A stretch of 54,570 nt of DNA from Phycisphaerae bacterium (GTDB lineage Bacteria; Planctomycetota; Phycisphaerae; UBA1845; PWPN01), in contig JAGNEZ010000045.1 of assembly GCA_018003015.1 (NCBI GenBank), forward strand, positions 1-54,570. The letters are read 5' to 3'. A program made the position numbers and the translations under genes. Below the pieces are notes generated by a model, which saw only the letters and a program-made list of their open reading frames with translations, had not been told where the DNA came from and ran no database searches. Shown here piece after piece: positions 11,727-42,873 of the stretch (positions are counted from its first letter, which is position 1; every line of letters starts with the position of its first letter).

Positions 11727-11918
11727 TCACTTCACGCAGTCCGGATCGGCCGGCTCACCCGCTCCGCTGAAGCACCTTTGGAGGAGGCCGAAGTCGGACT
11801 GGTCCACGTCGCCGTCATGATCGAAATCCCTGGCTTCACAGCCGGCGATCAGAGGAATCGCCGGACCTGAGGCGCAATCCTTAAACCGGTCGAAATCGTT
11901 CTGGTCCTGTGGAGCCAC
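11727..11918 (-). pseudogene. Orphan dockerin-like C-terminal tail
   Basis: Minus-strand frame ending at 11727 that encodes only the C-terminal module seen at the ends of the genes at 34785 and 40572: a first, degraded aspartate loop, then CASGPAIPL, then DFDHDGDVDQSDFGLLQRC and a final PADPDC. The second loop has the D-x-D-x-D calcium-binding spacing. There is no signal peptide or catalytic domain upstream, so this is the 3' end of a gene whose body is lost. The presumed role of such tails is calcium-dependent binding or sorting of exported proteins in this lineage. Confidence 0.7.
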
Positions 11919-12620: not shown

Positions 12621-15305
12621 ATGCGAAAGATGAACCCCGTTCTGTTGTCCCTGTTCTTCGCGACCTTCTGCTCAGCCCAGCCCAAAAAAGTCATCCTCAT
12701 GATCGGGGATGGCATGGGTTTCGAGCAGGTGAAGGCCGCCGGAATGTATCAGTATGGTGCCCCCGGCACGCTGTCGTTCGAGTCCCTGCCCCATCAGGCC
12801 CAGGTCACGACGTATTCCGCGAGCAGCTCGATTACCGATTCTGCTGCCGCAGGGACGGCGATAGCCACGGGGACTAAGGTGAACAACGGCGTCATCAGCA
12901 TGGCCCTGCCCGGCAACGGCCTTCCACTCCAGACCATGCTGGAGCATTTCGAATCACTCGGCTACTCGACCGGGCTGATCACCACGTCCTATCTGACCGA
13001 CGCGACCCCCGCCGCGTTTGGAGCCCACGAAACCTCCCGCAACAACACATCGAATATCGCATTGGACTACTTGACACAGACCACGCCGGATATCCTGTTC
13101 GGCGGTGGTGGTAACGGCCTGACACCCACCCTGGCCCAAGGCTACGGGTACGTGGCGGTCACGGACTGCGCAAGTCTCCTGGCCCTGAACACCTCCGTCG
13201 GACCGGTCTCGGCCCAGTTTGGATCAGGTCCGATGCCCTACGAGTATCAGGGTGACTACTCCGGAGTTTGCCACCTCTCCCAAATGACCCAGTGGGCGCT
13301 GCAGAAGCTGGACACAGACCCCGACGGCATGTTTCTGATGGTCGAAGGAGGCAACATCGACCACGCGGGACATTCGAACAACCTTAACCAGAACGTCTAT
13401 GAGACCGTCGAGTTCTCGCGGACGGTGCAGATCGTTATGGATTGGGCGGCCGGCAGGACGGATACGATGATTCTGGTGACCGCCGATCATGAAACGGGTG
13501 GCCTGTCGGTAATCAGTCACAGCGGGGTTGCGGGTGATTGGCCAGTGGTTTCGTGGAGCACCACGGGGCATACGGGTGCGAACGTTCCGGCCTACGCCTG
13601 GGGCGTCAACGCTGAACTCGTCACCGGCATTCTCGACAACACCGATTTCTTCGCCATCGTAACCAGCTCGCCCAACGTCGCTCCCGTTGCCGATGACGGC
13701 TTTGCCAGTACGAGCGAGGATTCGCCCGCGGTGATCCATCTGTCGGCCTCAGATGCCGATGGTGACCCACTGACATATACGGTGGAGACGCCGCCGGCGC
13801 ACGGCTCCCTGGCCGGGGCCGGCCCTGATCTCACCTACACGCCCCAGGCCAACTACAACGGGGATGACAGCTTCACCTTCAGAGCCAATGATGGCCAGGC
13901 GGACAGCGGAGTCGCCACGGTCTCCATCGCAGTAGAACCCGTCAATGACGGTCCTGCTGCGAATGCCGGGCCTGACCAGTCGATTGACGAAGGGCTGACC
14001 GTGACACTGGATGGCTCGGGTAGCACCGATCCGGAACATGACGCGTTGAGCTACGCCTGGTCTCAAACGAGTGGGCCGGCCGTTGAGCTGATGGGCTCCA
14101 ACACCGCCACACCGAGCTTCACGGCACCACAGGTTGAGGCTGCGACCACGCTGGTTTTCCAGCTCATCGTATCGGATGGTCTGCTTTTGTCCGCACCCGA
14201 TGAAGTGGTTGTCACGGCGAGTCCTATCGTCTACGACGCTTACGCAGATCAGAATCCAGTGGTGGCCATCGGCACGCTGGTTGGTGGCTTCTCCGGGACT
14301 TTCGTTGCCGACGGCCAGGTCCAGACCCTCACCGAAGGGCAGAGCGGAAAGGGCAAGGCCAGCCTCCTGGCAGAGTACCGCCTGCATACGCAAGCCAACC
14401 CGGCTGCTGTGAACCTGTTGGCTCTTCACCTGGTGGCAACATGGACCGCAATCGAACCTACTGACCCGCTGATCGTGGAGATCTGGAACGGGACGGCTTG
14501 GCAGGACATCACCGCGGAAATCACAGGCGGGACGTTCACGCCCGCTACACCAGGATCCTACGTGGGGACGGATGGCAACATTCGCGTGCAGTTCAGGGAT
14601 GCCGCCGGTCTGAAGGCCGACCAGAAAGATACCCTGACCATCGATCTCCTCTACGCCGAAGTAGACGTTGGGCCTGTTCCCGACCTGCCGCCGAGCGCGC
14701 CGACCGATCTTCAGGCCACTGCCGGCAACGCGGAGGTGATCCTCGACTGGACTGACAACCTGGAGACCGACTTGGCCGGATACAACGTCTACCGTTCCGC
14801 TGCGCCAGGCGGCCCGTATGAGCGGCTCAACGGCAGTCATTTGGCAGAAAGCACCTATCTCGACCAAGCTGTCGCGAATGGGATCACCTATCATTATGTA
14901 GTGACTGCGTCGGATCAGGCGGGCCAGGAAAGCTCACTGAGCATGGAGGTGGCCGCCACACCGAGTCAGCAGCAGCCCACAGTTCACGTTGAGGCCATTT
15001 CGATGGGAATTGCCAAGGTCGGCAGGAACTGGCAGGCCACAGCGACGATTCGCATAGCCGATCAGACAGGAACGGCTCGAACGGGAGCTGCTGTTTCAGG
15101 TGACTGGTATTTCAAGGGAGCCCTCATCCAGCAAGGTGCGTCGGGTATTACAGATATCAACGGTGACGCCCGCGTTACTTCACCAGGAAAGGTGGCCAAG
15201 AGCGGCGACGTGTTCACCTTCAGGGTGACGCAAGTCGACCTGGCCGGTCACGTCTATGCGGCGAGCGAGAACAAAACAAGCGAAGGTTCGGTCGGTGTCC
15301 CCTGA
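12621..15305 (+). CDS. Secreted alkaline phosphatase with Ig-like/PKD/FN3 tail
   Basis: Exported phosphomonoesterase of 894 residues, with a short signal peptide ending about residue 18 (TFCSA). The PhoA-type domain (about 20-350) keeps the full active site: D30 in MIGDGMG, nucleophile S74 in TDSAAAGTA, D127 and T129, E242, D247, H251 in EGGNIDHAGH, D289-H290 in TADHETGG and H317 in TTGHTGA. A cadherin/Ig-like repeat (about 355-440), a PKD-like repeat (about 443-530), an unassigned stretch and a fibronectin type III domain (about 695-785) follow. The extra modules likely hold the enzyme at the cell surface or on a polymer. It would release phosphate from organic esters outside the cytoplasm. 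ATG 12621 follows GAGAGGA; ATG 12630 is a possible alternative. The divergent neighbours are unrelated debris. Confidence 0.92.
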   Translation: MRKMNPVLLSLFFATFCSAQPKKVILMIGDGMGFEQVKAAGMYQYGAPGTLSFESLPHQAQVTTYSASSSITDSAAAGTAIATGTKVNNGVISMALPGNGLPLQTMLEHFESLGYSTGLITTSYLTDATPAAFGAHETSRNNTSNIALDYLTQTTPDILFGGGGNGLTPTLAQGYGYVAVTDCASLLALNTSVGPVSAQFGSGPMPYEYQGDYSGVCHLSQMTQWALQKLDTDPDGMFLMVEGGNIDHAGHSNNLNQNVYETVEFSRTVQIVMDWAAGRTDTMILVTADHETGGLSVISHSGVAGDWPVVSWSTTGHTGANVPAYAWGVNAELVTGILDNTDFFAIVTSSPNVAPVADDGFASTSEDSPAVIHLSASDADGDPLTYTVETPPAHGSLAGAGPDLTYTPQANYNGDDSFTFRANDGQADSGVATVSIAVEPVNDGPAANAGPDQSIDEGLTVTLDGSGSTDPEHDALSYAWSQTSGPAVELMGSNTATPSFTAPQVEAATTLVFQLIVSDGLLLSAPDEVVVTASPIVYDAYADQNPVVAIGTLVGGFSGTFVADGQVQTLTEGQSGKGKASLLAEYRLHTQANPAAVNLLALHLVATWTAIEPTDPLIVEIWNGTAWQDITAEITGGTFTPATPGSYVGTDGNIRVQFRDAAGLKADQKDTLTIDLLYAEVDVGPVPDLPPSAPTDLQATAGNAEVILDWTDNLETDLAGYNVYRSAAPGGPYERLNGSHLAESTYLDQAVANGITYHYVVTASDQAGQESSLSMEVAATPSQQQPTVHVEAISMGIAKVGRNWQATATIRIADQTGTARTGAAVSGDWYFKGALIQQGASGITDINGDARVTSPGKVAKSGDVFTFRVTQVDLAGHVYAASENKTSEGSVGVP

Positions 15306-15405
15306 TATACCAGGATCCTGAAGCATTATGTGCATGCAGTGGGTGAGCAAGCTCTGACCAGCCCCCACGCCTCGTCACCATCTCGCGAACTGAGCTCTTG
15401 GGTGA

Positions 15406-16539
15406 TCAGGCACTGATGCTGGCTGGCTCGCCCAGGCGCTTCAGGGGCTTGAGAAGCAGATCGAGAATGCTGCGGCGCTCGACAAGGATACGGGCCTCCA
15501 TCATCAGGCCCGGCTTGATCTGCCGCAGCAACGGGGCCGAGGCCTGTTCCTGCCGTTCGAGGGAGACCCACGCCCGGTAGTGGCCTTCCTCTCCCGCGTC
15601 CGGTTCGACCTCGACGAGCCGCCCTTCGACATAGCCATAATCCTCCCGAGGAAGCGCGTCGAATGCCAGACGCACCGGCAGGCCGCTATGCAGCCGCCGC
15701 ATGGACGCGTTGGGGATCGCGATGCAGGCCATCAAGGGCTGATCATCCGGCATGACGGTAACGGCCGGGCGGCTGGTGTCGATCGCGCTGCCGGGATGGA
15801 GCACGGCCAGGTGGGTCACGGTCCCAGCGACGGGGGCCCGAATCACCGATCGGCGGGCATATTCCCGGAGCTGGCCGAGCTGGATGGTCAGGGTTTCAAC
15901 GCGGGCCTCAGCCTCCAGCGCCAGCCGGCCCCGCTCTGTGGCATCGACAAGGTTCCGCTTGAGGTCTGCATCGAGGCGGGCAAGCCGGCTCTCTGCATCG
16001 AGCAACTCGCGTTGCTTGGCCTGTACCTCCATGTGCGTGGCGGCCGAGCCTTGCTCGAGCGTTCGGAGACGCTCGAGTTGCTCAGTGACGAGTCCGGCCG
16101 ACCGCTTGGCTGTGTCCCGCTCCGTCTCCAGAGCCCTCCGCACCTGCGCGAGCGCATCTGCGTTCGCGCGGTGACGCGACGTCTCCAGCCGCAGGGTGGC
16201 AATCTCGGCCGATAGGCGATCCGCCTCCGAGGTGTGCTGAAAGGCATCGAGCCGAAGCAGCACGTCGCCTTCGGACACGTGCTGGCCGATTCGCACGGGC
16301 ACGTCGACGACGAGGGCGAACTCGGGTGCCGAAATGTGCAGCGGCTCCCCCTTGATGATAAGCCGGCCGCGGGCGTTCACGACCACATCCGCCTGTGCCA
16401 GCCACATCCACATGAGTGCGGTGGCGGCCAAGGCCAGGGCGAGGTAGACCAGGCCACGCGAGATAAGGATGCCCGGGCCGGGAAGCAGCTTGTCCGATCC
16501 CCGGAGTGGCGTGACTGGCATGGTCGTATCGAGTTCCAT
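15406..16539 (-). CDS. HlyD-family adaptor of peptide exporter
   Basis: Membrane-fusion protein of 377 residues. I chose ATG 16539 because AGGAGG on the minus strand lies eight bases upstream; an ATG at 16545 is too close to it. A transmembrane segment (GLVYLALALAATALMWMWLA) is followed by a periplasmic biotinyl-lipoyl-like half (VVDVPVRIGQHVSEGDVLLRL), a long coiled-coil hairpin rich in E, R and L, and the second half with RAPVAGTVTHLAVLHPG. It should bridge the inner-membrane ABC exporter to an outer-membrane channel; no TolC-like gene is in the window. It begins 41 bp after the exporter gene stop, so the two form an operon. It ends 100 bp from the convergent phosphatase stop. Confidence 0.9.
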   Translation of the reverse strand: MELDTTMPVTPLRGSDKLLPGPGILISRGLVYLALALAATALMWMWLAQADVVVNARGRLIIKGEPLHISAPEFALVVDVPVRIGQHVSEGDVLLRLDAFQHTSEADRLSAEIATLRLETSRHRANADALAQVRRALETERDTAKRSAGLVTEQLERLRTLEQGSAATHMEVQAKQRELLDAESRLARLDADLKRNLVDATERGRLALEAEARVETLTIQLGQLREYARRSVIRAPVAGTVTHLAVLHPGSAIDTSRPAVTVMPDDQPLMACIAIPNASMRRLHSGLPVRLAFDALPREDYGYVEGRLVEVEPDAGEEGHYRAWVSLERQEQASAPLLRQIKPGLMMEARILVERRSILDLLLKPLKRLGEPASISA

Positions 16540-16580
16540 TGTCATTTCCTCCTGCAAGCTTCGATCCTGCGCCGTCAACG

Positions 16581-18809
16581 TCACTGGTTGAGCTGCTGGC
16601 CGATAAGCGTCGTGTACAGGCCGCCGCAACGCAGGAGCTGCTCGTGCGTACCCTCCTCGACGATCCGACCGGCGTCCATCACCACGATCCGGTCAGCGTA
16701 GCGAACCGTGGAAAGCCGATGGGCGATCACCAGCGTGGTCCGACCCGCGGCCGCCTGCTCCAGGTTCCGTTGGATCGCCCGGTCCGAGATGTTGTCCAGG
16801 GCGGAGGTGGCCTCGTCGAGAATGAGTAGGTCCGGATTGCGGAGCAGGGCCCGCGCCAGGGCGATCCGTTGGCGCTGCCCTCCGGATAGCGACATGCCGC
16901 GCTCGCCGACCTTTGTGTCGTAGCCCATACCCATCTCGCTGATGAACTCATGGGCCCCGGCCTGCCGGGCCGCCTCGACCACCTCCTCGAACGACACCTC
17001 GGGGTCACCTACCGCGATGTTCTCGCGGATGGTGCCGGAGAAAAGAAACACCTCCTGCGGGACGACGCCCATTCGCCGACGCAAGGCCGCCCGCGAGATC
17101 GTCCGCAGGTCGTTGCCATCTAGCGTGATCCTGCCCCGGGTGGGCTCGTACAAGCCAAGAATCAAGCGGGCAAGCGTTGATTTGCCCGACCCCGAGCGGC
17201 CGACCAGGGCGACCGTCTCGCCGGCTGCGACGTCAAGATTGATCTCGGTCAGGGCCAGCTCATCCTCATCTCCTTTGTAGCTGAAGGTCACATTCTCCAG
17301 ACAGATGCGCCCCTCTAGCCGCGACGGCGTGAGCAGTGTCCGGCCATTCTCCTCTTCCGGCGCGGACTCGAACACGTCATTCAGTCGATCAACGGCATTG
17401 CGTACCTCCTGCAGATCGTCCCAGGCCACGATCAGATTGACGATCGGGGTGACGACGCTGCCGGCAATGGCAACGAATGCCAGCAGTTGGCCCGCAGTCA
17501 TGGCGTGGTTCATGACCTGGTGGGCCCCATACCACAAGAAAATGACCGCGGCGGTGGTCTGCACCAGGGTGGCTAGACCAGAGTAGCCAGTAGTGAGGTG
17601 GGCGCCTCGGCGGGCGGCGAGCAGCGAGTCGATGTACAAAGACTCCAACCGCCAGCGGACCTGCGGTTCGATGGCCATGGCCTTGACCGTACTCATGCCG
17701 GTGACCGATTCGATGAGGTAGGTGGTCGCGTCGGTGCGGCGGGCGAACTGTTCCTTCTCGTTTCGACGTAGGGCGGGGGTGAAGGCGAACGTGAGCCCGG
17801 CAAACACCGGCAGCACGGCAAGCACCACCACCGTCAGACTGGGACTGTACCATGCCAACACGGCGAAATACCCGATCGCGAGGGTGGCATCCAGGGCGAC
17901 GCCGGGGATGGTGCCAGCCATCGCCGCGCGGATCTTCCGGTTCTCCGACACACGGGAGACAACGTCACCGACGCGCCGAAGGTCGAAGAAACGCATCGGC
18001 AGCCGGAACATCTGGCGAAAGAAGTCGCCGATCAGGCGGGCGTCTGCGCGGATGGACACGTGCACGAGCAGGAGCTGGCGGACGGACTTGATCATGGCCT
18101 GGAAGACCGCCACCAAAAGCATGCCCCCGAGCAGCATGTTCAGCAGGTCGACCGACCGATTCACCAGCACGCGATCGATGACCATTTGCGTGAACATCGG
18201 GATTCCCAGGCCCAGAATGCTGAGCAACAGGGAAGCAGCGAACACCTCCCCGACCATGGCGCGGTACGGACGCATGATCGGGAGGAAGCGACGCCAGGAG
18301 CAGGTACGTGCTTCCAGCAACGTCAGGTTACGCGTGGGAACGAGCTCCAGGGCCTTGCCCGTCCAGCCGGCAAGGAACTCGGCCTTGCTCATCCGGCGGC
18401 GGCCCATGGCCGGGTCGGACACGACGACGTGGCCTCGTGCCACCTTGTAGAGCACAATGTAGTGGAAGCCTTCCCAGTGGACGATGGCGGGGACCTGGAT
18501 GCCGCTCAACGCCTCGAAGTCGAGTTGGAACCCGCGGGCATGGAAACCCAGGGTCTCTGCCGCCCGAGCGAGCGACCACATGCTGCATCCGTCGGCATCC
18601 ACGTTGGCCAGGTCTCGCAGGCGGGCAACGCCCACGGGGTGGCCGTGGTAGGCCGTGATCATCGCTAGGCAGGCCGCACCGCAGTCGGTCGCATCGTGCT
18701 GACGGATGTTCGGGTAACGCCTCAGCCAGCGTCGCCAGCGTGGAGACCGGACGGCGTGAGTGGCTGACTCCGGCGGGGTGGGGACGGTTGTGGGATTTGT
18801 AGCGATCAC
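16581..18809 (-). CDS. C39-peptidase-containing ABC exporter (PCAT)
   Basis: Bifunctional leader peptidase and exporter of 742 residues if translation starts at GTG 18809, which follows GGGAG by five bases; upstream in-frame starts would add a long low-quality N-terminus. The C39 peptidase occupies about 30-170, with Q37, catalytic C43 ([14 protein letters not shown]), H116 (GFHYIVLYK) and D132 (SDPAMG). Next come six transmembrane helices, then an ATPase with Walker [10 protein letters not shown], signature [16 protein letters not shown], Walker [13 protein letters not shown] and a switch histidine in IAHRLST. Such proteins cut after double-glycine-type leaders and export the core peptide. 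The divergently encoded precursor has exactly such a leader. It is co-transcribed with the HlyD gene. All catalytic residues look intact. Confidence 0.93.
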
Positions 18810-19164
18810 GGCGGCTCCCTGGTTGAGTTGACCCGTTGCCGCAAGCCCTTGCCCTGTGGGCGGGCCGCTCCTATCCCAGTACACCGAAAATGACTGGCTC
18901 CGCTCACGGTCTGCGCCCGCCAAGTTGACCACGGACCAAGGTTCACTCTGCAACCGCATTGTTGCCCAATGACTCAATTCCGGCGCGATCGACTTCCCAA
19001 ATAATCCGTGCCGCGCACGTGAACACATCCTGCGTTTGTCGGTCTGCCAGATATGAACCGAGTTTCAGGGCCCCTGGTTCTCGATTCGAGAATCCGAGTT
19101 GTCGAGACGGCAGTGGGCCGTCCCGAAAAGCTGTAACGACGAACCATCAGGAAAGGAACAAATC
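18810..19164. promoter_or_regulatory. Divergent promoter region of RiPP island
   Basis: About 355 bp between the exporter GTG (minus) and the precursor ATG (plus), so it should hold promoters for both transcripts. No clear sigma-70 boxes or operator palindrome was found. AGGAAAGGA at 19149-19157 is the ribosome site for the precursor and GGGAG the one for the exporter. No regulator gene is adjacent. Confidence 0.5.
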
Positions 19165-19389
19165 ATGAAGAAGAAGATGAATCTCGTCCTTCTGTCCAAG
19201 GCCGAACTCAAGGGAGTCTTGGGTTCGCGGGCCGGTGTGCTGGGTAGCTGCGCACCCACGTTTCCGTTTCCGCCCGAGGACCCCCTGCCGGGCGGCCCCA
19301 TCCAAACCGGTGGGAATTCAACTTCGTATACGTGCTATTGTCAGACGTCGAAGGACGGCGAGCACAATTACGATGTGCACTGGGTGTAA
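19165..19389 (+). CDS. RiPP precursor peptide with double-Gly-type leader
   Basis: Predicted 74-residue precursor. The start is ATG 19165, after AGGAAAGGA. The leader is lysine-rich at the start and then shows the C39 recognition pattern in full: L10, E14, L15, V18, G20, S21, that is L(-12) E(-8) L(-7) V(-4) G(-2) S(-1). Predicted cleavage after S21 gives a 53-residue core starting RAGVLGSCAP. VLGS occurs twice (18-21 and 25-28); the second copy fits the pattern poorly. The core has three cysteines (C29, C57, C59), a Pro-rich stretch (31-45), a Gly/Ser/Thr stretch (TGGNSTSY) before C57-Tyr-C59, and a C-terminal His-Trp-Val. It precedes two radical SAM proteins and opposes the matching exporter. 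Candidate links are thioether (Cys to a carbon) or carbon-carbon rings, but this is inference. Confidence 0.82.
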   Translation: MKKKMNLVLLSKAELKGVLGSRAGVLGSCAPTFPFPPEDPLPGGPIQTGGNSTSYTCYCQTSKDGEHNYDVHWV

Positions 19390-19463
19390 AGAACAGGAGT
19401 ACGACCGCTAGTTCTGAGCGCTCAGAGGGGGTATGCCCCACCATCGAAGGAGCCCTGCTTCCG

Positions 19464-19495
19464 CATCCTTCAAAGGGATGGAGGGGCTCCCCCTC
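19464..19495 (+). promoter_or_regulatory. Tandem hairpins between precursor and maturase
   Basis: Two adjacent stem-loops, an imperfect one (CATCCTT...AGGGATG, 19464-19480) and a perfect six-base-pair one (GAGGGG, CTC loop, CCCCTC, 19481-19495). There is no U-tract, so it is not a standard intrinsic terminator. A partial stop or an RNA end stabiliser between precursor and maturase is common in RiPP operons, where far more precursor than enzyme is needed. That role is inferred here. Confidence 0.45.
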
Positions 19496-19547
19496 GGGCG
19501 CTTGATTGGCCTTGACGAACCCGTTCCGCTCATGAGGAGCCGGCGCG

Positions 19548-21068
19548 ATGCAATCGCTTGTTACCTTTCAAACGAAATCGGGAAACCGCTACGTCTACGA
19601 CCGACGAACCAAGAGGTTGCTGCTGTGTCATCCATTGCTCTACCTCATGGCGGAGCTCGACCGACGCGGGATCGACGTTTCCGAGTGGTCCAAAGCCTCT
19701 CGGGAACTCCCCTTCGAGATCGGCGTATCCCCGGCCGACTTCGATGATTCCGAGATTCTCTACTATGCCGAAGAGTGGCTGCTCCTGAAGAGGAACGACA
19801 TGTTCGCCCCCATCGACGACCGGGCTCGGCTGAGTCGAAGGCTCACCGAAGAGGACGTAGCTCATTCCCTGGCCAATACGCACCACATCTGTTTCGAAAC
19901 CACCGAAGCCTGCAACCTGAACTGCAAATACTGCTCCTACGGGCAGTTCTATGCGGGCTTCGACGGGCGAAAAAACAAGCAGCTCGACCCCGAAACCGCC
20001 AAGAGACTCTTGCATGCCCTCGAGACACGATGGAAATCCCCTCAAAACACGAACCCGGACCGCCGGATTCGCCTCAGCTTCTTCGGCGGAGAACCACTGG
20101 TCAACGCCGCCTTCATCAAGGAAGTCGTGCGTCACGCACGCGCGAGCGAGTTCCTGAGAGATCGTCTGGTGTTCTCAATGACAACAAACGGCACCTTGCT
20201 CATACGCAACATGGATTTCCTCGTTTCGAACAACTTCTCGATCCTGGTCAGCCTGGATGGCAATCGCACAAACGACTCCTACCGCGTATACCACGACGGC
20301 CGATCGTCATTTGACGACGTGATGCGGAACCTCGAAACCCTGCGGGCCGAGCATCCAACATACTTCGAGGAGAACGTTTGCTTCAACGCGGTGATGCATG
20401 ACCGCAACTCGGTCGCTGAGGTTCATCAGTTTTACAAGGAGCGTTTTGGGCAGTTCCCGGCGCTTAGCGCTCTGGACACCTCCAATCTTCAACAAAGCAA
20501 GAGGAACGAATTCTACAAAATGCACCTGGACGTGGCCCGGAGCTTCGCCGAGAGCGAGAACCGGAGTGAAATCGAGCAGGATCTTCACACCAACCTGCCG
20601 AGCACGAATCGGCTCCTGCACTTTGTCAACGCGCAGCTGGAATTCAGCGTCCCCAACTACCAGGATCTCGTATGGCCCGAGAACGAGTCGAAGATCTTGC
20701 CTACCGGAACCTGCATTCCGTTCTCCAGGAAGCTCTATGTCACCGCGAGCGGCAAGATTCTCCCCTGCGAAAGGATACCACATGCGTTTGCGTTTGGCCG
20801 GGTGACGGAAGGTCATCTGGATCTCGACTGTCGTTCGATCGCGGATCATTACAACAAGCTCTACGATGAAATGACCAAGCTGTGCGCCCGGTGCTACAAG
20901 GCCAACACATGCGGACAATGTCTGTTCAAACAGATGGGTCCGGACGGTCCGAAGTGCCGCCGTTTCATGGATTACGACCGATATGCCCAGCACTTGAGCG
21001 AAGTGGTGAGTGATGTTGAGGACCGCCCGGAATTCTACTCCGAGGCCATGGACACGGTCGTCATCTGA
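19548..21068 (+). CDS. Radical SAM/SPASM RiPP maturase
   Basis: Peptide-modifying radical SAM enzyme, 506 residues; GAGGAG lies just before ATG 19548. An N-terminal region of about 110 residues (the likely precursor-binding part) precedes the radical SAM barrel with the cluster motif C122-x3-C126-x2-C129 (CNLNCKYC), SFFGGEPL at 178-184 and later SLDGN. The C-terminal SPASM region carries C389, G402, C407, C446, C449, C455, C458 and C470, enough for two extra Fe-S clusters. The arrangement with a short double-Gly precursor and a second radical-SAM-like protein resembles the GG-Bacteroidales maturase family, which I recognise by architecture and not by search. The product chemistry is not known. 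The next gene begins 35 bp later, so they share an operon. Confidence 0.85.
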   Translation: MQSLVTFQTKSGNRYVYDRRTKRLLLCHPLLYLMAELDRRGIDVSEWSKASRELPFEIGVSPADFDDSEILYYAEEWLLLKRNDMFAPIDDRARLSRRLTEEDVAHSLANTHHICFETTEACNLNCKYCSYGQFYAGFDGRKNKQLDPETAKRLLHALETRWKSPQNTNPDRRIRLSFFGGEPLVNAAFIKEVVRHARASEFLRDRLVFSMTTNGTLLIRNMDFLVSNNFSILVSLDGNRTNDSYRVYHDGRSSFDDVMRNLETLRAEHPTYFEENVCFNAVMHDRNSVAEVHQFYKERFGQFPALSALDTSNLQQSKRNEFYKMHLDVARSFAESENRSEIEQDLHTNLPSTNRLLHFVNAQLEFSVPNYQDLVWPENESKILPTGTCIPFSRKLYVTASGKILPCERIPHAFAFGRVTEGHLDLDCRSIADHYNKLYDEMTKLCARCYKANTCGQCLFKQMGPDGPKCRRFMDYDRYAQHLSEVVSDVEDRPEFYSEAMDTVVI

Positions 21069-21103
21069 TGTGCGATTCAGCAAGGTGAGCGAGGAGGTTT
21101 CCG

Positions 21104-22384
21104 ATGCCTGAAAGCGGTCGCAGCCAGTGGTTCTATCTTCACCCGCACGTTCACACGTGTGCCCAGGGGGCGTCGGGGCTGCTTTACGATCCCTTGACCG
21201 GCCACACGCTGGAGTACACCAACGAAACGGCCATCACCGAGCTGGTCGCCAGCCTCGACGGACCGGACAATCTGCGAGTCGTCGACTATGCAGATGTATC
21301 GGTCACTCAACCGGCGGTGGCCGACTTTGTCGACCGAGTTCGGGCCCTCCACATGGGCGGTTTGATCGACAAGAAACACTCGACGGGCAAGCCGATCCAG
21401 ATGACACCCAGAGCCCGTGTCCAACGAGATCCGAGAAAGGACACCCAAGACGCGGACATCATGCTCGGCGAAGCGGTCATGGGGTACGTGAAGGAGGTGA
21501 CGATTCATGTGAATCGTGTGTGTGATCTGGATTGTGCGTTGTGCACGAGCGCCTACAAGCAGTTCCGCTGCTGCACGCGAATCGAGGGGGGCAACGAGGA
21601 GCTTGATCTCGCGACGATCCGCCATCTTCTCGCGGAGTTGGCGAGTAGCGGCACGATGCAGGTCAACATGATCGGCGGGGATGTGTTTTCCTATTCGCGC
21701 TTCGAGGAGCTCATCAAACTCGTGGCAGCATCTCGATTCTATGCCACCCTGCACACGCACTATCTCAATCTGCCCGAAACGGCGGCGACTTTGGAGATAC
21801 TCGATGCCCGGCGATGGACGATGGAGCTCTTGGTGCCGATGCCGGTCGACCGGGCCCGGCTGGCTGAGGCCCTACGCATGCTCCGCGCGGCGGGATTACC
21901 ATATGTCGTGCACCTAGTCGTCGAGACCGACGACGATCTGGCCGAGGCTGAGGGACTGATCGACGCGCTGGGGCTCGTCGATTTTGCGGTTCGTCCGCAC
22001 TTCAACGGCCAGAATCTCGCCTTCTTTGAAGAAAACGTTTTCTTCACCAAGGACGACGTGGTAGCCGCCAGGCCGAGCCCCCAGGATTTGTACGCGAGCA
22101 GCCGCACGAACCGACTGGATTTCGGGCGTCTGGTCGTGCTCAGCACGGGCGAGGTGTTCGCCAACCCGAACACCCCGAAGCTCGGCGATCTCGCATCCAC
22201 CTCGGTACACAAGATGCTGTGCCACGAGGTTCGCCGGGGAGAAAGCTGGTTCCGCACGCGATCATGCGTCAAGCCGTGCCGGAATTGCGTCTTCCAGTGC
22301 ATGTGCCCACCGATTTCAAACTATGAACATGCTATAGGGCGTAACAATCTGTGTTTGGCCCCGCCTCGGGAGGTCGGAGAATGA
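21104..22384 (+). CDS. Radical-SAM-like partner of RiPP maturase
   Basis: Protein of 426 residues; AGGAGG lies eight bases before ATG 21104. It resembles the pseudo-rSAM partner of GG-Bacteroidales systems in its N-terminus (WFYLHPHVHTC, GLLYDPLTG, GKPIQMTPRARVQRD) and in the YKQFRCCTR region. It carries a complete C140-x3-C144-x2-C147 motif (CDLDCALC), so it may bind a cluster and be a true enzyme. The usual GGEP is replaced by GGDVF (191-195). C-terminal cysteines C373, C388, C392, C395, C399, C401 and C417 form a SPASM-like set. Likely roles are a partner that presents the precursor or a second modifying enzyme. The gene directly follows the maturase and probably ends the operon. Confidence 0.8.
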   Translation: MPESGRSQWFYLHPHVHTCAQGASGLLYDPLTGHTLEYTNETAITELVASLDGPDNLRVVDYADVSVTQPAVADFVDRVRALHMGGLIDKKHSTGKPIQMTPRARVQRDPRKDTQDADIMLGEAVMGYVKEVTIHVNRVCDLDCALCTSAYKQFRCCTRIEGGNEELDLATIRHLLAELASSGTMQVNMIGGDVFSYSRFEELIKLVAASRFYATLHTHYLNLPETAATLEILDARRWTMELLVPMPVDRARLAEALRMLRAAGLPYVVHLVVETDDDLAEAEGLIDALGLVDFAVRPHFNGQNLAFFEENVFFTKDDVVAARPSPQDLYASSRTNRLDFGRLVVLSTGEVFANPNTPKLGDLASTSVHKMLCHEVRRGESWFRTRSCVKPCRNCVFQCMCPPISNYEHAIGRNNLCLAPPREVGE

Positions 22385-22863
22385 GGCGCCCCTTGACAAA
22401 GGGACCATCCGAACGTCACAACGCATTGACCGCCCGCTCGCTGACCGTCCAGGCCGACGGTTGAGGGCACGCAGCCGATCACGATCGCTGAATCCAGTCT
22501 CGCGGGCGTCATTCAGTGGTAGGATGTCAGCTGCCCCAGTCAGATGCCGTGGGTCTGAATCCCAGTGCCCGCTTTAAATGCCTCCAGAAGCGTCACTTAC
22601 GAGAACCGACATTGATCGCGTGGTCGCACGCGTCCGATCCGGCATCGAGTCATCCCCACTTCTTTGGCGCCGAGGAGAAGAAAACCATGTTCGGCACCTG
22701 GGATCTTTATCGGACGATGGTGACAGCCGACAGAAAGGCAGCGACCAAGCCATTTTTCTCTTGAGTCTTTGCAGGGGGGGAGGTAGAGTCTAGGTATATC
22801 TGTCCACTGGGGTCTGAACGGTTACGGGAGAGGTAGTGTATTCAGAATGAGGAGATCAGGGAA
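22385..22863. other. Region downstream of RiPP genes
   Basis: No gene other than the tRNA-like sequence at 22502-22573. A small frame near 22686 has neither ribosome site nor recognisable content. AGGAG and AGGGA close to 22850-22861 serve the PEP-CTERM gene at 22864. Confidence 0.4.
22502..22573 (+). pseudogene. Degenerate tRNA-Gly (CCC) gene
   Basis: A 72-base sequence with tRNA-Gly layout: acceptor GCGGGCG pairs with TGCCCGC (one G-T pair), D arm with AGTGGTA, anticodon loop TGCCCCA giving CCC, T arm GTGGG...CCCAG. Defects argue against function: the anticodon stem TCAGC/GTCAG has two clear mismatches, the T loop is TCTGAAT and not TTCGAAT, and the T stem ends in a G-G mismatch. It lacks an encoded CCA. 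Such remnants often mark an integration site or an old duplicated attachment site, here beside the RiPP island. A functional but divergent tRNA is unlikely but not excluded. Confidence 0.6.
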
Positions 22864-34784: not shown

Positions 34785-35972
34785 ATGAAAACACTCCGCG
34801 CAACGGCATCGTGCTGTCTGGCTGTCTTCGGTCTGGCCGTGAGCTCTGCTGCAGGGCTGAGTATCGAGATTGTCCCCGTGGGGAATCCGGGCAACGTGGG
34901 GGAGCGGTCGGGTGCTGGTGCCGGCGGCTACGGCCCCGATCGCATCTGTGGTGCGGTGGCCTACGACTACCGCATCGGCAAGTATGAGGTCACGGCTGGT
35001 CAGTATACGGCGTTTCTGAATGCAGTCGCCGGGGCGGACACCTACTGGCTATACAACCCGAGCATGTCACGGCTCGATAATGGCAGCGGGATCACGCGAA
35101 GCGGGGGGGGAACCGTGAGCAACCCGTACATCTACTCGGTAGCGGCCGACTTCGCCAACCGGCCGGTGAACTATGTGAGCTTCTGGGACGCCTGCCGGTT
35201 TGCCAACTGGCTGCACAACGACCAGCCAACGGGCGCTCAGGGCCCGGGCACGACGGAGACGGGGGCCTATACGCTCAGTGGGTACAACGGTCTCGACGGC
35301 CGGACGATCCAGCGGAACGTCGGGTGGAAGTGGGCTGTGACCAGCGAGGATGAGTGGTACAAGGCGGCGCACTACAAGGGCGGAGCGACCAATGCGGGGT
35401 ATTGGGACTACGCGACAAGCAGCGACACGGCCCCGGGGCGAGATATGACCGATGCCTCCGGCAACAACGCCAACCAGCATACTGGCAGCGGTCCGTACCC
35501 CATCGATTCGGGCAAGTACACCACGGTCGCCGGCGAATTCCAGAACTCCGAAAGTCCGCACGGTACGTTTGACCAGGGCGGCAACGTGTGGGAGTGGAAT
35601 GAAGCCATTGTGTCCCAAGATGCCACGTACGCGTATCGCGGCTGGCGGGGTGGGGCGTTTTACACCAGCGACTACTACCTGCTCGCGTCGTATCGCAGCT
35701 GGCGCAGTCCAGCGGTCGAGGACAACAGCATTGGGTTCCGCGTTGTCGCGATTCCTGGCCCCGGGGACTTCGACGGCGACAGCGATGTTGACACCGCTGA
35801 TTCTGAGTTGCTCTTGCGGTGTAGCTCGGGACCGGCCATTCCTTTGAACGAGGTTACCTGCCAGAGAACCGATCTGGACAAGGATGGTGACGTCGACCAG
35901 TCCGACTTTGGCATCTTCCAGCGGTGTTTCAGTGGGTCGAACGTGCCTGCCGATCCGAACTGCGCGAACTGA
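34785..35972 (+). CDS. FGE-sulfatase-like protein with dockerin-like tail
   Basis: Exported protein of 395 residues; ATG 34785 follows a strong AGGAGG. A signal peptide (SCCLAVFGLAVSSAAG) precedes a formylglycine-generating-enzyme-type (SUMF1) domain: YRIGKYEVTAGQYTAFLNAV, VNYVSFWDACRFANWLHN, TSEDEWYKAAHYKG, GGNVWEWNEA, GWRGGAF and IGFRVV. The usual catalytic cysteines of FGE are not visible in the C-terminal part, so it may only bind substrates. The last 69 residues form two aspartate-rich calcium-binding-like loops (DFDGDSDVDTADSE and DLDKDGDVDQSDFGIFQRC), found also at 42340-42536 and 11727. These modules probably place or anchor exported proteins. The gene has no close partners. Confidence 0.85.
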   Translation: MKTLRATASCCLAVFGLAVSSAAGLSIEIVPVGNPGNVGERSGAGAGGYGPDRICGAVAYDYRIGKYEVTAGQYTAFLNAVAGADTYWLYNPSMSRLDNGSGITRSGGGTVSNPYIYSVAADFANRPVNYVSFWDACRFANWLHNDQPTGAQGPGTTETGAYTLSGYNGLDGRTIQRNVGWKWAVTSEDEWYKAAHYKGGATNAGYWDYATSSDTAPGRDMTDASGNNANQHTGSGPYPIDSGKYTTVAGEFQNSESPHGTFDQGGNVWEWNEAIVSQDATYAYRGWRGGAFYTSDYYLLASYRSWRSPAVEDNSIGFRVVAIPGPGDFDGDSDVDTADSELLLRCSSGPAIPLNEVTCQRTDLDKDGDVDQSDFGIFQRCFSGSNVPADPNCAN

Positions 35973-36138
35973 AGTACCGGTTCTGATTGCTTGGCCATCG
36001 CCGCCGGGCCTCACGGGGAAGACCTGGACGCCAACTGTGATAGTGTCGTCGACCAGGCCATCAGCCCCACCTGGCCCCGACGCCTTACTTTCGCCACTGC
36101 TTCGGTGGTCTCCGACTATCGGAAGGTCCGAAGCCAGC

Positions 36139-40571: not shown

Positions 40572-42536
40572 ATGTCAAGCCTGATCCGAGCAGATGTGCG
40601 GCACATGTGGGCGTCGTCAATCATTCTTGCATTCGCGCCTGCGGTGAGCGGCGGGCAGGTTATCGGCCAGCTCGCTGATCCGGAGCAGCCGGCCGAGGTG
40701 GCCTACGTGGATATCCTTTCGGCTTGGGTTGAGCAGGATGGCGGCCTGTTGACTTTCGTGATAGAGACTCGGGGCGAGATCCCCCCGAGCCTGGCTGAAC
40801 CGGAAGATCACCTTACCTTTATCTGGCTCGTAGACACCGACGACAATCCCCTTACCGGCCAGCCGCACCAGAACCTCGGCAGCGAGTTCAACGTGCGCGC
40901 GGTCATCAGCGGGATGTACGGGGGCGGATTCGTAGATGTGACTGGAACGGTCCCGGGCGGTGGGCTGGGCACTCTGGCCGTCCTGGGGAACCGGATCCAG
41001 ATCACGATCGGGCTCGGGCAAATCGGCAACCCAGCCGCGTTTCGCTGGAGCTGCGACGCCTGCCTTGCCATCGCCAACGTATGCGTCTCAGCCAACCACG
41101 AGACAGACACCGCCCTCGCGAGCGTATTGCCGTTTGCCCCACCAGCCCACGTCACCATCGTGACGCCCTTTCTGCCGCTATGCCCAACAGGGCCGGCAAC
41201 GGGCCAATTGACGGTGGAGATCCGCGACGCCGCCGGAAACCTCCTTCCCAGTGAGGACTATCATCTCGCGTTTACCAGCTCGGACGAAGCCACGGCGACC
41301 GTCGACGCCGCGGGCATTGCCACGATCCACACGTTCCCGACGCCGGAGCACCACATGTCCTACGTCCAGGTCTCCGCCGACGGCGTGCCATCCGACAACG
41401 CCGCTGTCGTCCGCAGCACGTTTACCGACCTGGGCCTCTCCTACCAGATGTATCCGGCCGAGCACATCGCGTTCTACCTGCCGTCAACCATCCAGGGCGT
41501 GGACCTCGACGCGATCACCACTGCCTACCAGGTTCCGGAGGCGACCGAGCGGGCCTACGTCGCAGAGCGGACGCTGACCGACGTGCGGCCATTCAACGGG
41601 GGCGTGCAGTACTTCATCCTCGAAGTCTCCGATCATGAACCCACCACGCCCTGCGGCATCAGCGGCAACCCGATGCGCCTGGGCTGGTTCTGGGGCAAGA
41701 CCGAGCACAACAGTTGCTACATCATCAACGCCCCCGAGCATCGCACGCCGCAGTGGTTCGTCATCTTCCATGAGGTGGGTCACAACTTCACGTGGTCGTC
41801 CTGGAGCTTCGGCCAGTTCTGCTCCGGGCCATCACCGGCGCACAATACCACATACAGCGAGGGCCTGGCATCACTGGCGGCCATGTGGGTCCATCACTCC
41901 ATCGTCTCCTGTCCGGCGGGTCTGGGGTCGCTCGCGGTCAGCGATATCGACGCCCACCTCGGAGGTTACATGGGCTTTTTCCGGCAAATGCTGTCCGACT
42001 ACCGCGTCGCAGGAGCCAATTACGCGGCATTTGACGCCAACGTGCTCGACGGCATCCTCTGCGAGTTGTTCGATGCCTACGGCCCCCGCGTCTGGTACGA
42101 GCTGTTCAGCACCTTCACGCCGACCGACCAGCCGCTCCCGTGCGTCATCGACGGCGAGGCGAAGCAGGCCACCTGGTTCGTCGCGGCAGTAAGCGCATCG
42201 GTCGGCGAAGACCTGCGCAGCCTGTTTGCCGGCCGGTACGGCTTCCCGATCGATGATGCCTCCTGGCCGGAGATGCTCGCCGCCGCCCAGGCACGAATCG
42301 CCGCTCGGCCGTGGCGATCGCCGCTGTCATTCGATTCGGACTGCGATGGGGACGTCGACGGTGATGACTTCATTCCGTTTGAGGCCTGCACGTCGGGTCC
42401 TGCCATTGCCTATATGGGCGACTGCGCCAAGGCCGACCTCGATCGTGACGGTGACGTGGACCAGTCCGATTTCGGCATCTTCCAGCGGTGTTACAGCGGA
42501 ACCGGAAAACCGGCCGACCCGGACTGCGCGAAGTGA
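40572..42536 (+). CDS. Exported gluzincin-like metallopeptidase with dockerin-like tail
   Basis: Exported protein of 654 residues with a signal sequence near 14-26 (ASSIILAFAPAVSG). A beta-sandwich N-terminal region (about 40-290) precedes a zinc-peptidase-like domain: HEVGH at 400-404, with a likely third ligand E430 in TYSEGLASLA. The spacing of 26 residues fits a gluzincin type. Several cysteines (CSGPSPAHN and others) suggest disulfides. The last 67 residues are the aspartate-rich module found in the protein at 34785 (CDGDVDGDDF, CTSGPAI, DLDRDGDVDQSDFGIFQRC, PADPDCAK). It may degrade or process proteins or glycoproteins outside the cell; activity is inferred only from the motif. AGGGA precedes ATG 40572. 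Confidence 0.75.
   Translation: MSSLIRADVRHMWASSIILAFAPAVSGGQVIGQLADPEQPAEVAYVDILSAWVEQDGGLLTFVIETRGEIPPSLAEPEDHLTFIWLVDTDDNPLTGQPHQNLGSEFNVRAVISGMYGGGFVDVTGTVPGGGLGTLAVLGNRIQITIGLGQIGNPAAFRWSCDACLAIANVCVSANHETDTALASVLPFAPPAHVTIVTPFLPLCPTGPATGQLTVEIRDAAGNLLPSEDYHLAFTSSDEATATVDAAGIATIHTFPTPEHHMSYVQVSADGVPSDNAAVVRSTFTDLGLSYQMYPAEHIAFYLPSTIQGVDLDAITTAYQVPEATERAYVAERTLTDVRPFNGGVQYFILEVSDHEPTTPCGISGNPMRLGWFWGKTEHNSCYIINAPEHRTPQWFVIFHEVGHNFTWSSWSFGQFCSGPSPAHNTTYSEGLASLAAMWVHHSIVSCPAGLGSLAVSDIDAHLGGYMGFFRQMLSDYRVAGANYAAFDANVLDGILCELFDAYGPRVWYELFSTFTPTDQPLPCVIDGEAKQATWFVAAVSASVGEDLRSLFAGRYGFPIDDASWPEMLAAAQARIAARPWRSPLSFDSDCDGDVDGDDFIPFEACTSGPAIAYMGDCAKADLDRDGDVDQSDFGIFQRCYSGTGKPADPDCAK
42340..42536 (+). 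other. Shared dockerin-like coding module
   Basis: The 3' end of the metallopeptidase gene is close in DNA sequence to the 3' end of the FGE-like gene at 35761-35972 (GACCAGTCCGA.TT.GGCAT and CTTCCAGCGGTGTT are shared). The similarity at base level, not only protein level, suggests copying of the module between genes. Confidence 0.6.
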
Positions 42537-42873
42537 TCGTGAAGTGGTCAGCCGGAGGACGCCGCTGAACGCTACTTGCTGGATACGCCGGGCGCAGTCA
42601 ACAGCCTGCCGAAGGTACTAGGCACGCCGGGCGTGGAGACTGCCCATGCAACACCTGAGGATGATCACCATCCCGTTGTACGCCCTGTTGTACACGCTGG
42701 CGACATCCCCTTACCCGGCACGTCATTTGCCGGCACTGCGGGGGCTGGAGGCGGTGATTTGACCGGCAACTCTAAATCCTCTAGCCAAGAACACTTAGGC
42801 ACTGCGAGGCATCCCAGGTCATCGAATGAACTAAGAGCTTTTGCGTCGCGAAGCCGACGCAAAAGCTCTTAGT
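42537..42873. other. Gap after metallopeptidase gene
   Basis: No gene seen. It ends in the long inverted repeat (42828-42875). Confidence 0.35.

Follow-up and report, generated by a model that had tools for sequence, protein, structure and literature searches.

The gene set examined here has its closest described counterpart in the GG-Bacteroidales cassette: in Bacteroides uniformis the same genes have been described, a C39-type exporter and an HlyD-type protein included (PMC4573289). A second point of reference is thuricin CD, whose two radical SAM enzymes bind each other tightly, the radical activity of only one being strictly essential (PMC12093266). The window (the whole stretch of DNA analyzed, 54,570 nucleotides) comes from a Planctomycetota genome and holds a distant version of the GG-Bacteroidales cassette. 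Our preferred reading, to which we assign a probability of about 0.7, is that the short ORF at 19165-19389 encodes a RiPP precursor that is crosslinked by two neighboring radical SAM maturases, cut by a C39 peptidase after G20-S21, and exported. A first-pass annotation of the ORF had already proposed a RiPP precursor with a C39-type Gly-Ser leader, and that part stands; its suggestions of two cleavage sites and of a meaningful tyrosine do not, and it overlooked the radical SAM pair.

A five-gene cassette in a planctomycete

Five genes make up the cassette (15406-22384), encoding an HlyD adaptor, a C39 ABC transporter, the precursor, a TIGR04148 protein (rSAM1), and a TIGR04150 protein (rSAM2). 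The features discussed below are as follows.

15406-16629, minus strand: HlyD-type periplasmic adaptor of the exporter (HlyD_3, E 5.1e-13)
16581-19028, minus strand: C39 peptidase ABC transporter (Peptidase_C39, E 2.3e-38; ABC_membrane; ABC_tran), given as the longest ORF, start uncertain
19165-19389, plus strand: putative RiPP precursor of 74 aa, leader 1-21 and core 22-74 (from sequence, leader pattern, and congener)
19165-19227, plus strand: leader peptide, residues 1-21, with predicted C39 cleavage after G20-S21 (from a 36-leader matrix)
19333-19341, plus strand: CxC core motif C57-Y58-C59, at the start of a variable patch, codons 58-63 (from the congener and related precursors)
19407-19510, plus strand: long stem-loop between the precursor and maturase genes (MFE -61.6 kcal/mol, z -4.4, 0/200 shuffles)
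19548-21068, plus strand: radical SAM/SPASM peptide maturase rSAM1, TIGR04148 (CX3CX2C at 122-129, GGEP at 180, seven SPASM cysteines)
21104-22384, plus strand: second radical SAM protein rSAM2, TIGR04150 (CDLDCALC at 140-147, C157, GGD at 191-193, C392/C395/C401/C417)
15290-22410, no strand assigned: cassette block shared with the congener MAG RA.bin145 (blastn 97%, unrelated flanks on both sides)

The transporter adjoins the precursor and retains the catalytic residues of its C39 domain (Gln110, Cys116, His189, and Asp205); its gene could plausibly begin at an internal start, near 18.8 kb. The adaptor matches TIGR01843 with an E value of 1.8e-47, under the curated cut-off. In the congener, the spacer separating the divergently oriented transporter and precursor genes is about 250 bases longer (window 18942-18946 versus L014:9429-9684).

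The congener, a MAG of the same genus (Planctomycetota bacterium RA.bin145), is central to the comparisons that follow. A sample of 392 genomes from the phylum contained one with TIGR04150, and among 114 genomes of the order two had TIGR04148, both from one genus. Since the spread is this patchy, horizontal gain of the cassette is likely, judging from gene distribution. In the maturase tree the two planctomycete sequences share a long branch at the unresolved base of the Bacteroidota set, and a rooted tree for the direction of transfer or its donor was dropped for that reason. The GC contents of the maturase genes (0.56 and 0.60) lie slightly below that of the window (0.62).

The two genomes share 97% identity over the block and 96% over a nearby gene outside it, so the block seems as old as the split between the genomes while sitting in different contexts. 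We considered whether the block is a recent mobile insertion whose ends can still be seen, and set this aside: the flanks are unrelated, but no tRNA was found at the block and no convincing repeats flank it. Because synteny between the two genomes is also broken elsewhere, no empty site could be established. Two further observations may be recorded. An 8.4-kb record from human feces filed as 'Bacteriophage sp.' (L062, MT837976.1) carries a TIGR04148/TIGR04150 cassette with a CCLCAC precursor, and may be a mislabeled bacterial fragment. Several window ORFs (11727-11918 on the minus strand, 35889-35988, and 42453-42539) end in a segment, DxDGDxDVDxxDF..FxRC.SG, that also occurs in the congener; its sequence suggests a common segment of dockerin-like or sorting type.

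The precursor: leader, predicted cleavage site, and core

The ORF at 19165-19389 translates as MKKKMNLVLLSKAELKGVLGSRAGVLGSCAPTFPFPPEDPLPGGPIQTGGNSTSYTCYCQTSKDGEHNYDVHWV and is preceded, a few bases 5' of its ATG, by the Shine-Dalgarno-like AGGAAAGGA. This translation places L10, E14, L15, V18, G20, S21, C29, C57, and C59, and both copies of VLGS, where the first-pass annotation had put them. The frame is intact in the congener (MKKKMNLVLLSKAELKGVLGSRAGVLGSCAPTFPFPPKDPLPGGPIQTGGNSTSYTCQCRTETDGEHNYDVHWE), with 68 of 74 residues identical and the leader and all three cysteines kept; neither genome-wide inspection for a second copy nor a search of the TIGR04149 profile against the whole genome (nothing above cut-off) returned another candidate. 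The 74-aa sequence matched zero Pfam or NCBIfam families at E 1, TIGR04149 included, and reached only 3 bits (E 3.4, not significant) against a profile built from 36 precursors of homologous cassettes. Homology to either set is thus undetectable by sequence, which counts against the preferred reading, and the precursor joins the family by position and pattern rather than by homology.

The pattern is specific. We searched near start codons for L-x3-E-[LM]-x2-[LVIMA]-x-G-[GAS] in short ORFs (35-200 aa): of the 505 in the window, 19165-19389 alone carried it, and ten shuffles of the window, with about 6,700 ORFs in all, gave no match. All six positions of the C39 leader consensus are occupied as proposed at first pass (L at -12, E at -8, L/M at -7, V/L/I at -4, G at -2, and G/A/S at -1), the precursor ending in G-S. 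The 36 relatives, from homologous cassettes in Bacteroidota genomes, plasmids, and one unverified phage record, share these preferences: L(-12) in 31, E(-8) in 24, M or L(-7) in 30, L/I/V(-4) in 35, and G(-2) in every one. Their leaders all end in GG, however, and the G-S of the window precursor is a point against the preferred reading.

Cleavage was predicted with a 14-position matrix derived from the 36 Bacteroidales leaders. It scored the first VLGS at +14.4 and the second at -16.8, pointing to G20-S21; among 23,044 stretches in the short ORFs of the window, two outscored the first VLGS, both of them without G at -2. If C39 instead cut at the second VLGS, after S28, C29 would become the new N-terminus. 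That VLGS is kept in the congener, and one relative (L010) has Cys immediately after its GG, but the -7 and -8 positions would be Arg and Ser. With these leader positions and the negative score, we rejected the second site as a candidate and regard cleavage there as unlikely; the earlier idea of two possible sites accordingly reduces to one.

In the predicted core, comparison with homologous precursors, which the first-pass annotation had proposed, identified CxC as the shared feature: it occurs in 33 of the 36 collected Bacteroidales precursors, often as CxCxC. The tyrosine between the close cysteines is not conserved, because the congener reads CQC where the window has CYC; a role for the Tyr between C57 and C59 is therefore not supported. 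In many Bacteroidota cores (e.g., L058, L056, and L096) a second motif, NxxANY, lies about 10-20 residues past CxCxC.

The shared CxC bears on two alternative readings. The peptide could be an unmodified double-glycine-type product, bacteriocin-like (class II) or a signal, in which C57 and C59 stay as free thiols or pair in a disulfide while the radical SAM enzymes act elsewhere. Taken by themselves, the leader and the C39 transporter are compatible with such a peptide, but the precursor lies immediately 5' of both maturase genes in the same orientation, an order repeated in homologous cassettes; the leader pattern is absent from every other short ORF in the window; and CxC is common to precursors tied to these enzymes. 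We consider this reading quite improbable, and no finding of this analysis points to antibacterial or signaling activity. Alternatively, CxC and the N-terminal Cys might bind metal, making the product a chelating peptide. Metals are commonly bound by CxC and CxCxC, and related cores are often CGCGC-like, whereas the neighboring enzymes are akin to thioether-forming maturases and the window peptide has just three cysteines; metal binding in place of crosslinking seems to us very unlikely. So small a number of cysteines also weighs against the preferred reading of a crosslinked precursor.

The core appears to be changing quickly. Twelve nucleotide differences separate the precursor gene from that of the congener, and eight of these fall within 18 nt (codons 58-63), leaving both cysteines of the motif unchanged; equal clustering arose in 4 of 200,000 random placements. 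The precursor dN/dS against the congener is 0.76, versus 0.12 for HlyD, 0.14 for C39, 0.28 for rSAM1, and 0.32 for rSAM2, and by this measure the four non-precursor genes are under purifying selection. This is the picture expected if the core changes while the leader and the modification sites stay fixed, two sequences being few for such a comparison.

Between the precursor and maturase genes, the stem-loop at 19407-19510 folds almost identically and with equal energy in the congener. It is single-copy in the genome and lacks a U-run; an intrinsic terminator scan returned none at this hairpin, and no Rfam family was found within 15-23 kb. It may set the precursor-to-enzyme ratio or stabilize precursor mRNA.

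Two radical SAM proteins

The first maturase, rSAM1, scores 433.2 bits against TIGR04148 (curated cut-off 300). Its best solved relative in a profile search is CteB (5WGG, E 2.5e-30), and a structure model of moderate confidence (pLDDT 62) matches 5WHY and 5WGG with Z of 18 and 17, so that, as judged from sequence and model, CteB, a thioether-forming SPASM maturase, is its nearest relative among solved structures.

In the reading that we prefer, the leader (residues 1-21) would recruit rSAM1 and rSAM2, which probably work as a pair, jointly modifying the cysteine-bearing core. They would install crosslinks through C29, C57, and C59, most likely thioethers by analogy with the relatives of rSAM1, with carbon-carbon links or epimers as alternatives. 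The C39 domain of the adjacent transporter would then cleave after G20-S21, and transporter and adaptor would export a core of about 53 residues.

The second protein, rSAM2, scores 333.1 bits against TIGR04150 (curated cut-off 250), a family named 'pseudo-rSAM', and is also above the cut-off for Pfam Radical_SAM. It is not motif-less as 'pseudo' implies: CX3CX2C is intact as CDLDCALC, and a fourth cysteine, C157, follows a KQ pair. Its structure model, also of moderate confidence (pLDDT 68), has SkfB and SuiB, both RiPP maturases, as fold matches at Z 17. Since the SuiB match begins near residue 9, an N-terminal leader-binding domain is possible on the basis of the model. The moderate confidence of both structure models also tempers the preferred reading.

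The state of the motif varies across the family: among 37 full-length TIGR04150 members, CX3CX2C is intact in 20 and lost in 17, with states differing, for example, between L046, L048, L056, and L092 and L010, L050, and L058. Intact members combine the motif with a nearby KQ-x3-C, and the fourth cysteine is present or absent together with CX3CX2C. The four C-terminal cysteines (392, 395, 401, and 417) are retained in all motif-less members. The family tree implies about seven changes of motif state, three to four of them forced by strongly supported branches, and about seven persist when the motif region is excluded. Because independent regain of four cysteines is implausible, repeated loss is most simply inferred from these sequences. 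Precursor architecture showed no clear simple link to motif state: the motif-less L058 and L096 have CGCGC cores, as intact loci do.

With 17 of 37 members having lost the motif and kept the remainder of the protein, radical chemistry appears to be dispensable in many of them. It is thus possible, if not our favored view, that rSAM2 is catalytically dead and serves as a structural or leader-binding partner in which the cysteines merely persist; the nonessential radical activity of one thuricin CD enzyme would fit this. Against it, the intact group, and both planctomycetes as well, retain the four cysteines together with the GGD/N stretch across long branches. We give even odds to a broader scenario in which the planctomycete locus is a truly dual-radical form of the cassette: TIGR04150 was ancestrally active beside TIGR04148 and its site has decayed repeatedly, while in the planctomycetes both enzymes remain active, their substrate being a new and rapidly changing CxC core that does not belong to the known precursor family.

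Outside these cassettes, Ruminococcus albus plasmid pRUMAL03 (L113:2769-4010) encodes a 413-aa 'hypothetical protein' with CDNNCFFC that adjoins a huazacin-family RiPP and its radical SAM enzyme and has weak similarity (17 bits) to a TIGR04150-type profile. Partner radical SAM proteins are perhaps a wider class, judging from this sequence.

Comparison with known systems

Compared with the GG-Bacteroidales cassette (TIGR04148/04149/04150; e.g., Bacteroides uniformis ATCC 8492), the planctomycete locus agrees in having both enzymes above the curated cut-offs, a short precursor just 5' of them, a C39 ABC exporter with HlyD, the leader positions, and the core CxC. It differs in its Planctomycetota host, in a precursor that TIGR04149 does not recognize and that carries G-S rather than G-G, in exporter genes placed on the opposite strand, and in an rSAM2 motif that is intact despite the 'pseudo' name. 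The cassette is thereby extended beyond Bacteroidota, with a precursor overlooked by current models, and its core target emerges as CxC with a variable middle and tail. The function of 'pseudo-rSAM' proteins also becomes testable: natural relatives with and without the motif occur across about seven changes in the tree, beside a related partner enzyme.

Thuricin CD (TrnC and TrnD) resembles this locus in having two radical SAM proteins per peptide system, one of them perhaps catalytically dispensable, and its two-enzyme complex may serve as an analogue for the rSAM1/rSAM2 pair. It has two precursors where the window has one, and for the window peptide thioethers are a prediction.

CteB/SCIFF and other thioether-forming SPASM maturases resemble rSAM1 in fold, sequence, and the seven SPASM cysteines. 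The differences lie in family and substrate: rSAM1 scores 82 bits against the SCIFF maturase profile, far under its cut-off of 425, and its putative substrate has three cysteines, compared with a six-cysteine peptide in the SCIFF system.
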